From contig JAQUIG010000012.1 of the NCBI GenBank assembly GCA_028683435.1, forward strand, positions 1-64,000: DNA of 64,000 nt, read 5' to 3'. Of this stretch, positions 4,151 through 7,803 are shown in pieces. Within the stretch, counting starts at the first letter, position 1. Every line of letters begins with the position of its first letter. Both the position numbers and the translations under genes were made by a program. Origin of the DNA: Desulfuromonadaceae bacterium. Lineage in GTDB: Bacteria > Desulfobacterota > Desulfuromonadia > Geobacterales > Pseudopelobacteraceae. The notes below the pieces were generated by a model, which made no database searches, had not been told where the DNA came from, and saw only the letters and a list, made by a program, of their open reading frames with translations.

Positions 4151-5110
4151 ATGACGGTGCTCCCGTGGCAAACCGGAACCACACCGCTGATGCTGGCGCC
4201 GATGCAGGGGCTGACCAACCGGGCCTTGCGCTCCTATTTCATCGAACATGTCCGGCCCGACGTTATCTTTACCGAGTTCATGCGTGTCAATACAGCACCG
4301 GCGGGAGCGGGGCTCACCGCTGCCGACCTGCGGGATGTCGCCACCGAGCAGGAGGGTGTGCCGCTGGTGGTGCAGTTGGTGGGGCATGAGCGGATAGCGC
4401 TGGTCCTGGCGGCCCGGGTCGCACAGGGTGCTGGCGCCGCACATATCAACCTCAACATGGGGTGCCCCTATGGCCGGATGGGGGGCGGCCAGACCGGTGG
4501 CGGGATGCTCCGCTGTCCGGACAATCTTGCGGAGGTCATCCCCGCCTTGCGGGATGCGGTCAACGGCTCCTTCTCCGTCAAGATCCGGGCCGGGTACGAC
4601 GATCCGGACCAGATCCTGTCGCTGCTGCTGCTCTTCGAGTCGAGCGGGGTGGATTTCCTGGTGCTGCATCCCCGTACCGTGGTCCAGAAGTACGAAGGTA
4701 GTGCCGACCATGCAGTGACCGCCCGGGTGGTGCGGGAGACCCGGCTGCCGGTGATTGCCAACGGGGATATCCGGAGCGCTGTCGATGGCGAACGGCTGCT
4801 GGGCGAGACCGGCGCTGCCGGACTGATGCTGGGACGGGGGGCGATTGCCGACCCGGCGCTGTTCCGGCGCCTGCGGGGAGTGGTGAACCGCGAGCCCGGC
4901 CGGGAAGAACGGAGATCGGAGCTTGACCGCTATCTGCGGGAGATGCTGATACGCTATGGCCAGCTGTTCTGCGGCGATACGCAGGTGCTGAACAAGGTCA
5001 AGGAGATCATCGCGTACCTGGATGATCCGGAACTGTCAAAACTGCTCAAGGAACTGCGGCGGGCCAAAACCGTGCGTGCGTTTGAAACTGCTCTTCACGG
5101 GCTGCGCTGA
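4151..5110 (+). CDS. tRNA-dihydrouridine synthase family protein
   Basis: LAPMQGLTNRALRSYF, NLNMGCPYGRM, VKIRAGYDD, HPRTVVQKYEG, VIANGDIRS, LMLGRGAIADP: Dus family hallmarks. Confidence 0.9.
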   Translation: MTVLPWQTGTTPLMLAPMQGLTNRALRSYFIEHVRPDVIFTEFMRVNTAPAGAGLTAADLRDVATEQEGVPLVVQLVGHERIALVLAARVAQGAGAAHINLNMGCPYGRMGGGQTGGGMLRCPDNLAEVIPALRDAVNGSFSVKIRAGYDDPDQILSLLLLFESSGVDFLVLHPRTVVQKYEGSADHAVTARVVRETRLPVIANGDIRSAVDGERLLGETGAAGLMLGRGAIADPALFRRLRGVVNREPGREERRSELDRYLREMLIRYGQLFCGDTQVLNKVKEIIAYLDDPELSKLLKELRRAKTVRAFETALHGLR

Positions 5111-5160: not shown

Positions 5161-5433
5161 TTAGCGTTGTAAATTACCAACAAATTGCAGCCCGATTTGA
5201 TTAAGATTAATTCTGACAACTTTGCATAAAAATTTAACTGGAGCTAATATTACAGTGTTTAAAATGCCCGTTTCGCCAACCCGAATGTGCTCTTGTTCTG
5301 CAGCGGTCACTTCAATCAATGCTCCACTCGTTGAGATATTATCAACCAGACAATTATATGTTGTGCCATTAATATCCATCTGGCCCTCTGATATAAATGT
5401 GAATCTTTCATCACTTCGCTTTTTATTGTGCAT
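5161..5433 (-). CDS. PilZ domain protein (putative c-di-GMP receptor)
   Basis: RxxxR (RSDER) near the N-terminus and DNISTSGALIEV (D/NxSxxG). Start set at MHNKKRSDERF, preceded by GGAGATCTTT. Confidence 0.8.
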   Translation of the reverse strand: MHNKKRSDERFTFISEGQMDINGTTYNCLVDNISTSGALIEVTAAEQEHIRVGETGILNTVILAPVKFLCKVVRINLNQIGLQFVGNLQR

Positions 5434-5508
5434 AAAGATCTCCATGCTGTGAATCGGACTGAGGTAGTCAACAACGGACACGTTGTACGGAATATGATGA
5501 AGGCAAAA

Positions 5509-5760
5509 TTATGTGAAAGTAGAGAAGTTCTGCTGCAGTAACTTAATAATTTTTTCTGTTGGAAGCGATGTTCCGGCAAACATCACAATCCCATTTATTA
5601 TCAGTGCAGGTGCCGATTTTACCCCATATAACATAATGGTCTTGATATCATTTATCATAACAACTTTCCCGTTCACGCCGCATTCTTTTAAGGCTTCCAA
5701 TACATTGCCAAATATGGAATTGCGGATTTTACCAACATTCTCGATGACTTCAATTTTCAT
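5509..5760 (-). CDS. Small thioredoxin-like protein (redox-active disulfide protein 2 type), active-site CXXC absent
   Basis: MKIEVIENVGKIRNSIFGNVLEALKECG...DIKTIMLYGVKSAPALIINGIVMFAG resembles the family, but the expected G-C-x-x-C is V-G-K-I. GGAGG precedes the ATG. Confidence 0.7.
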   Translation of the reverse strand: MKIEVIENVGKIRNSIFGNVLEALKECGVNGKVVMINDIKTIMLYGVKSAPALIINGIVMFAGTSLPTEKIIKLLQQNFSTFT

Positions 5761-5871
5761 TTTATCCTCCATCGGGATAGTGTTCTTTACTCTTGCACGT
5801 ATATCGTTAACATCAAAATATGGAGTGAGTATGGAAGAAATGAGGAATTAGAAAGGTATCGTAATAAGATT

Positions 5872-6019: not shown

Positions 6020-6778
6020 TTACGGGGCAGAAATGGTATTTGCGATTAAAGTAACCGCGGTCTGTGCCAACGCTCTACCGCTCAGCGTTGCGCCGGTATT
6101 CATCGAGATCAGCGTTTGACTCAAGATAATTCCCTTGACGTCAGCCGTTGTTCCAAGGGTCGCTTTGCCAGAAACCTGCCAGAATATGTTCTTGGCCTGC
6201 GCACCGCCGACAAGGTTAAACTTGGCGGCATTGTTCACAACAAGATCTCCAGCTATCTGAAAGATCCAGACGTCGTTTGGGCCGCCCGCGAGAGTGATTC
6301 CGGCATTTGTGATTAAAACTCCTGTTCCCCATTTGTAGAGGCCGGGCAGAAGTGTCCGCCCACTAATATCTCCGCCGCCCAGTTCAATGAAATCAGGTGA
6401 TTTTCTCCCGGCGGCGTCAGTGAACGCGGTTTTCATGTCGCTTATAGCAGTGGTCATTTTAGTAGGAGTAGGCGGAGCATAATCAGCTGCATATATTTTT
6501 TCGGTCACTAATGACGACGTAGAAAATGTATTCGTGGAATCCGCGATCAGTCCAAACCCCGTCATGGCAGTTGCGGTGATAGGACTAACTCCCATATCTC
6601 CAACAACTGTGGTGGTTCCGGTGGTTGTGATTCCTGTTTCTGTCAGAATGGTAAAACTCCCGGCTGTCCCAAGGTCTACTGGCGTGGGACCTGCTGCAGT
6701 TGCACCTGTGGCAAAGGTCAAAACACTCATAACTGCCATACTTGCAAGGTAAGCTTTCTGTCGCTTGAATCTTTTCAT
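6020..6778 (-). CDS. Secreted DUF3494 / 'ice-binding family' protein
   Basis: Signal peptide (MKRFKRQKAYLASMAVMSVLTFATGATAA) then VDLGTAGSFTILTETGITTTGTTTVVGDMGVSP...LPGLYKWGTGVLITNAGITLAGGPNDVWIFQIAGDL...NIFWQVSGKATLGTTADVKGIILSQTLISMNTGATLSGRALAQTAVTL. Start set at MKRF, preceded by AAGGAGAT. Confidence 0.85.
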   Translation of the reverse strand: MKRFKRQKAYLASMAVMSVLTFATGATAAGPTPVDLGTAGSFTILTETGITTTGTTTVVGDMGVSPITATAMTGFGLIADSTNTFSTSSLVTEKIYAADYAPPTPTKMTTAISDMKTAFTDAAGRKSPDFIELGGGDISGRTLLPGLYKWGTGVLITNAGITLAGGPNDVWIFQIAGDLVVNNAAKFNLVGGAQAKNIFWQVSGKATLGTTADVKGIILSQTLISMNTGATLSGRALAQTAVTLIANTISAP

Positions 6779-6899
6779 GGAAATCTCCTTTTTTGAGCTA
6801 CTGTTCATAACATGAAGCCGGTCGGTATAAATGTTTGCGCCGATCCGGACGCTACAACTGAGTTGTTATGGGTCACCTCCCGTGTCGAATTTTGAACAC

Positions 6900-6949
6900 A
6901 AAAAAGCCGGGGCCTTGTATCGTGTGTGCGATATTTCGGCGACCCGGCT
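6900..6949 (-). terminator. Intrinsic terminator (riboswitch expression platform)
   Basis: Minus strand: AGCCGGG tc GCC gaaa TATCG cacaca CGATA caa GGC CCCGGCT TTTTT; nested complementary arms followed by a T-run. Confidence 0.85.
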
Positions 6950-7013
6950 GTCTCGTTGAGACCCTTAGGTTTTCCGTCCTATCCTCACGGATAGTTTAGT
7001 ATTGTCGTGTATC
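6930..7013 (-). ncRNA. GEMM-I riboswitch aptamer, predicted 3',3'-cGAMP-selective (GEMM-Ib)
   Basis: Minus strand: GATACACGACAATACTAAACTATCCGTGAGGATAGGACGGAAAACCTAAGGGTCTCAACGAGACAGCCGGGTCGCCGAAATATC. Has CTATCC-GTGA-GGATAG, GTCTC-AAC-GAGAC, GGACGGAAAACC and AGCCGGGT.GCCGAA; base preceding CTAAAC is A. Confidence 0.88.
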
Positions 7014-7095
7014 TGTTGTAACTTTTGCAGTGATGCCAACCGTACACCCACGTGAAATTAAAGCAAGCATAAAATTTTCAGGCAAAAGCCAGCGA

Positions 7096-7146
7096 AGGAT
7101 AATTAGGCGGATTAATAAGGGGAGTGCCCCTGATTGTGGACCTGTC
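7096..7146. repeat. Short intergenic repeat, copy 2 (AGGATAATTAG ... CTGATTGTGGACCTGTC)
   Basis: Ends match copy 1 at 5933-5996, same orientation. Confidence 0.6.
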
Positions 7147-7212
7147 GTACATTTGACCTGTGCGGGAACTTTAGGTATGATGCGGGAACGAAACGAAGGG
7201 ATCAAACTGCAG

Positions 7213-7803
7213 ATGCATCATTTGAAATATTTAGCCGGCTATTCACTGCAGATAACGGCCCAGGTGGCGGAACTGGTAGCGGAAAACCGATTGGGCAGCG
7301 TTATTGTGCAGAGATATCCGAAAGCGCACGATGTCAGAACTGATAAGGCACTCTATGACTTTACCGTCGATATCAAGAACGAGTTCATGCGCACCGCCCA
7401 GCCGCTGAGCAGGGTTCTATACGACGGGAAGATCCATGTGATCAACAACGCCCTGGGGACCCACACATTTGTATCACGTGTACAAGGTGGCAAGCTGAAG
7501 GCAAAGCACGAAATCCGCATAGCGTCGGTCTTTCGGGACGCTCCGGGAGAATTTCTGAAAATGATTGTCGTGCACGAGTTGGCGCACTTGAAGGAGAAGG
7601 AGCACAACAAGGCTTTCTACCAACTCTGCAGATATATGGAACCCACCTATCACCAGCTGGAATTTGATACGCGGCTGTTCCTGACCCATGTGGAGATGGC
7701 TGGGTCACCGTACCTATCCCGAGGAACTTCTGCGGGCCGGTCGTCAGCCCGCAAGAGCCTGAATAGTATGAAGTCTGAGACAGGTCTTTTTGAATGTAGG
7801 TAA
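7213..7803 (+). CDS. YgjP-like / M48-type (DUF45) metallopeptidase
   Basis: VVHELAHLKEKEHNKAFYQLCRYMEP zinc protease motif; start set at MHHLKYLAG because the upstream part overlaps repeat copy 2. Confidence 0.75.
   Translation: MHHLKYLAGYSLQITAQVAELVAENRLGSVIVQRYPKAHDVRTDKALYDFTVDIKNEFMRTAQPLSRVLYDGKIHVINNALGTHTFVSRVQGGKLKAKHEIRIASVFRDAPGEFLKMIVVHELAHLKEKEHNKAFYQLCRYMEPTYHQLEFDTRLFLTHVEMAGSPYLSRGTSAGRSSARKSLNSMKSETGLFECR

Follow-up and report, generated by a model that had tools for sequence, protein, structure and literature searches.

The window, meaning the whole 64,000-nt stretch of DNA analysed here, covers positions 1-64,000 (forward strand) of contig JAQUIG010000012.1 from a Desulfuromonadaceae bacterium (GCA_028683435.1), whose genome of 3.17 Mb in 97 contigs defined the scope of our genome-wide GEMM-I and GGDEF searches. 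Its minus strand encodes a secreted DUF3494 protein, whose gene is preceded by a leader with the anatomy of a riboswitch and followed by two small genes. The features of the locus are as follows.

4151-5110, Dus-like gene flanking the block
5161-5481, minus strand, small PilZ-domain protein (PF07238), possible third gene of the transcript
5509-5772, minus strand, small thioredoxin-like protein (PF13192), possible second gene of the transcript
6020-6778, minus strand, secreted DUF3494/Ice_binding protein of 252 amino acids (PF11999, E 5.4e-75)
6779-6883, minus strand, truncated copy of a spacer element (model R2, 35.5 bits, E 4.9e-8), truly homologous to ~6813, the rest being the leader of the ice-binding gene
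6900-6949, minus strand, intrinsic terminator predicted by folding: 5′ arm AGCCGGGTCGCC (6949-6938), 3′ arm GGCCCCGGCT (6914-6905), T tract 6904-6900
6929-7013, minus strand, GEMM-I aptamer (GEMM-Ib, A20-type), identified by RF01051, our own covariance model, and covariation; helices P1 GATA/TATC (short), P1b CTATCC/GGATAG with a GTGA loop, and a third helix GGGTCTC/GAGAC..CC
6973, minus strand, A equivalent to Vc2 A47 (Rfam alignment)
7000, minus strand, specificity base, A where Vc2 has G20 (Rfam alignment)
7030-7803, YgjP-like gene flanking the block

DUF3494 proteins are known chiefly as ice-binding proteins. The window gene starts at the ATG at 6778, a start common to the orthologues L033 and L034 (the automatic open reading frame began at 6808), and a ribosome site, AAGGAG, precedes it at ~6790-6785. 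The product begins with a signal-like segment, contains a complete Ice_binding/DUF3494 domain, and is near to solved DUF3494 structures (9lhn, E 2.9e-82). No terminator-like site was found on the minus strand between the DUF3494 and thioredoxin-like genes, and it is possible that these two and the PilZ gene form one transcript. In one other genome (G018), close relatives of the Dus-like and YgjP-like genes are separated by only a short region free of DUF3494, so the block looks inserted in the window genome.

Read descending from 7013, the minus strand is GATACACGACAATACTAAACTATCCGTGAGGATAGGACGGAAAACCTAAGGGTCTCAACGAGACAGCCGGGTCGCCGAAATATCGCACACACGATACAAGGCCCCGGCTTTTTT. A search of the window against 4227 Rfam families returned a single match above cut-off, the GEMM-I (c-di-GMP-I) family RF01051 (46.7 bits, cut-off 35; E 5.4e-6 in the 64-kb window), which covers the full length of the model (1-87) at 7010-6935 on the minus strand. 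Every motif quoted in the original prediction of a GEMM-I architecture is present on this strand, including the short P1. The window aptamer and 33 relatives, drawn from its own and related genomes, were aligned (n = 34); our own covariance model scores the window copy at 106.8 bits, as high as its relatives. Both strands change at five of the six P1b pairs (CTATCC/GGATAG); in the other helices most pairs are invariant and therefore uninformative. Across the alignment, 97.5% of cells pair in the GEMM-I structure, against at most 42% after sliding of the partner strand, and the covariation score is 0.158 against 0.117 in shuffles. The near-invariant core comprises ACGA.AATACT.AAC, GGAAA and CC after P1b, and AGACAGCCGGG..GCCGAA. 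Judged by its sequence, the leader (7013-6900) is a transcriptional riboswitch, an additional member of the known GEMM-I class. The c-di-GMP-I-GGC variant (RF03167), a family of the same clan, scored 50.0 bits in a permissive search, below its cut-off of 59; its consensus has G where the window has A at 6973 (the A47 equivalent), which rules this variant out.

In the Rfam alignment, A7000 faces the leading G of the GGC consensus (Vc2 G20), which fixes exactly the substitution that had been placed near this position. The same base is A in 34/34 aligned aptamers, and the group is uniform for A20/C21/U22, with a C21-G46 pair. Vc2 of Vibrio cholerae shares the overall architecture of this family, whose cut-off the window passes, but has G20 and a G21-C46 pair. 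Twelve GEMM-I matches occur in the genome, 11 of them above cut-off; in eight of these, A20-C21-U22 is paired with G45-G46 as in the window, and the other three have G20-G21 and are of c-di-GMP type, so both subclasses coexist. The same coexistence of A20 and G20 subclasses is found in Geobacter.

A likely source of signal is also encoded. Among 28 GGDEF matches in the genome, L157 carries a Response_reg domain N-terminal to GGDEF, with the motifs GHLVGS (Ser for the canonical Asp) and GGDEY. Among PDB entries it matches 6d9m best (E 1.9e-62), listed, with no organism printed, as an endolysin-response receiver sensor diguanylate cyclase fusion; the entry fits the lysozyme-fused GacA domain of G. 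metallireducens (PMC6456294). The Hypr signature of GacA, a cGAMP synthase, is Ser348 (PMC6456294), and L157 is a close relative of GacA in which this signature Ser is kept. With A20 in the leader and a GacA-type L157, sensor base and signal source would both be present in one genome. The original prediction of a preference for 3′,3′-cGAMP thus gains indirect support from A20, the uniform A20/C21/U22 group, and a putative Hypr GGDEF protein. We infer both the identity of the ligand and control in vivo from A20, the uniformity of the subclass, and work published on close relatives.

We consider it unlikely that the riboswitch, despite its A20, recognizes c-di-GMP or responds about equally to both dinucleotides. 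There is a precedent for dual specificity in the Geobacter omcST riboswitch, which binds and responds to both (PMC6456294), and the number of GGDEF matches makes it very probable that the organism produces c-di-GMP. Against this stand the uniformity of A20 with C21-G46 in the aligned aptamers, the maintenance of a separate G20 set in the same genome, and the finding that replacing A20 with G is by itself enough to convert the selectivity of Gmet_0970 from cGAMP to c-di-GMP (PMC6456294).

As had been proposed for the 3′ half of the aptamer, positions 6949-6938 are used twice: the 5′ arm of the terminator is the 3′ strand of the aptamer, so that the two folds exclude each other. This overlap was also found in 67 of the 76 related aptamers tested. 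As the modeled transcript grows, aptamer helices form until it reaches 6915 (-22.7 kcal/mol); once it extends to 6905, the terminator takes over (-34.4 kcal/mol). For the full leader, the ligand-free secondary structure of the aptamer amounts to ~-10.7 kcal/mol and the minimum-energy terminator fold to -35.1 kcal/mol, both being nearest-neighbor energies that ignore tertiary contacts and ligand. In the G. metallireducens pilM riboswitch, cGAMP prevents formation of an overlapping terminator and the folds are mutually exclusive (PMC9262584); ON logic has been established experimentally for Geobacter pilM and pgcA (PMC9262584, PMC6456294), and deletion of gacA lowers expression of genes behind GEMM-Ib switches in vivo (PMC6456294). 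The ON switch that had been predicted is supported by the modeled folding of the nascent transcript and by the architecture of pilM and pgcA, and is the best reading of the window leader. On this model, the aptamer would fold first during transcription, and bound 3′,3′-cGAMP, supplied by the GacA-type Hypr GGDEF enzyme, would hold its 3′ strands, allowing RNA polymerase to read through into the secreted DUF3494 gene; with no ligand, these strands would pair with GGCCCCGGCT and transcription would end at the T tract.

Geobacter GEMM-Ib systems (GSU1761/pgcA, Gmet_0970, and G. metallireducens pilM) share with the window the aptamer core, A20, exclusive folds, the ON logic, and a Hypr GGDEF protein (GacA) in the genome (PMC6456294, PMC9262584). 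Their targets are cytochrome, pilus, or lipoprotein genes, whereas that of the window is a DUF3494 gene; and the window leader, unlike theirs, runs on into a truncated spacer element.

This continuation bears on the origin of the leader. Strong DNA matches to the stretch past the terminator (6912-6780) occur in ~10 genomes of the same genus (E down to 1.6e-24), the best six at 80-83% identity over ~95 nt. In these relatives the matched stretch sits between two tandem GEMM-Ib aptamers ~229 nt apart, and the tandem leaders precede a lipoprotein-like gene; the L015 copy of this gene carries a fibronectin type III domain. The first aptamer, first terminator, and start of the spacer in these leaders (e.g., L015 and L018) are homologous to the window, at ~82% over ~95 nt, but the leaders retain a second aptamer and a second spacer half, both absent from the window, and the gene also differs. 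Homology ends at ~6813, where the ribosome-binding region of the DUF3494 gene begins. The closest DUF3494 homologs (74-87% identity) have a different leader with no riboswitch; conservation of the riboswitch-DUF3494 linkage in the nearest homologs was considered and rejected, because a GEMM-Ib model search found no riboswitch at any of 100 homologous ice-binding loci (0/100). The likeliest history is that the DUF3494 gene captured its leader from a tandem cGAMP-riboswitch leader, a direction read tentatively from a sparse distribution: the gene would have acquired aptamer 1, its terminator, and ~70 nt of spacer just ahead of its ribosome-binding region, and aptamer 2 would have been lost.

A further tandem arrangement, of cGAMP-type aptamers ~219 nt apart, was seen at L008:1366-1676 (G000:C34) before a cell-envelope lipoprotein-like gene that by eye resembles LysM/L,D-transpeptidase; we take it to be like GSU0181-0183 of G. 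sulfurreducens.

An alternative is that the leader has decayed, with an intact aptamer but with regulation lost through truncation and movement and the gene driven in another way. The truncated spacer and missing aptamer 2 fit such a history, as does the search for a promoter: no convincing one was found upstream of the window riboswitch, and no sigma-54 promoter matched within two mismatches near 7013-7150. Yet the window aptamer scores as well as its relatives, the terminator is intact, and one aptamer with a terminator suffices in pgcA and pilM (PMC6456294, PMC9262584); we therefore hold decay to be quite improbable. Hairpins by themselves are common, but an ordinary intrinsic terminator or chance hairpins with no riboswitch can be dismissed, this reading being already refuted by the full-length RF01051 match in the search of 4227 families and by the near-invariant core and covariation in 34 sequences. 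Taken together, the locus is very probably a GEMM-Ib transcriptional ON riboswitch for cGAMP that controls the DUF3494 gene, its leader derived from a tandem cGAMP-riboswitch leader.

The spacer was aligned in 20 copies over 104 model positions, some of them belonging to other genera and other families within the order; no Rfam family matched it. It opens with a conserved GGAGGUGA and contains a small hairpin as well as a UUUAUACCG/CGGUAUAAA stem. Both-sided changes occur at eight of 21 pairs and 87.7% of cells pair, in an alignment that was itself fitted to the structure; an inverted repeat can alternatively be a protein-binding site in DNA. The element lies directly before a GEMM-Ib aptamer, with or without another aptamer upstream; the exceptions are the window and L190, in both of which the following aptamer has been lost. 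At L190:1400-1660 this appears as a second, independent loss: beyond the spacer element, only the first bases of aptamer 2 of a tandem leader remain. The long stem is broken in the window, so the element is probably inactive there. Copies outside the window are located as follows.

L015:1462-1565, reference copy of the spacer element, aligned with 19 further copies (alignment A5)
L194:1462-2722, spacer element, cGAMP-type riboswitch, and second DUF3494 lineage
L196:430-1653, the same arrangement

The last two, in genomes G028 (L194) and G024 (L196), came from the spacer-model search: the element and a GEMM-Ib aptamer precede a gene of another DUF3494 lineage (PF11999, E 4e-52 and 7e-48), and with these two further cases the association of DUF3494 with GEMM-Ib is not unique to the window. 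Upstream in L194-L196, sigma-54-like sequences, TGGCAC-N5-[AT]TGCT, were seen by eye. Other homologs of the L194/L196 protein (L199-L205) showed no riboswitch in the flanks examined. A DUF3494 gene lies downstream (up to 2.6 kb) of three among 146 distinct GEMM-Ib aptamers, a lower bound, since the aptamer was found by pattern and some flanks were short. With the window and the L194/L196 lineage, DUF3494 thus recurs as a target, though rarely, and has been acquired as one at least two times. Elsewhere, at L001:357-1578, a GEMM-I aptamer of G20 (c-di-GMP) type precedes an HD-domain (HD-GYP-like) gene, an arrangement that suggests feedback control of c-di-GMP breakdown.

In the literature covered, no paper connected DUF3494 to Geobacter, or ice-binding to a riboswitch together with c-di-GMP. 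The DUF3494 target and the accompanying element may be new, although the original 2015 cGAMP-riboswitch papers could already list a DUF3494 target. More speculatively, the spacer could be a structured regulatory element, so far undescribed, that acts together with cGAMP riboswitches; the two would move as a module onto new genes, those for DUF3494 surface proteins at least twice among them, and cGAMP would thus also control DUF3494 proteins, whose role might be that of mineral or surface adhesins. We offer this wider proposal tentatively and consider it rather doubtful as a whole.

The mechanism of this riboswitch class is already solved, and the locus contributes what may be a new target in the secreted DUF3494 protein. 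The cGAMP signal controls growth on solid iron oxides in Geobacter (PMC6456294), and if a second messenger tied to contact governs DUF3494 as well, a role for these proteins at surfaces besides ice would be indicated. The locus also illustrates how a riboswitch regulon may grow, through the movement of a ready-made leader to a new gene.
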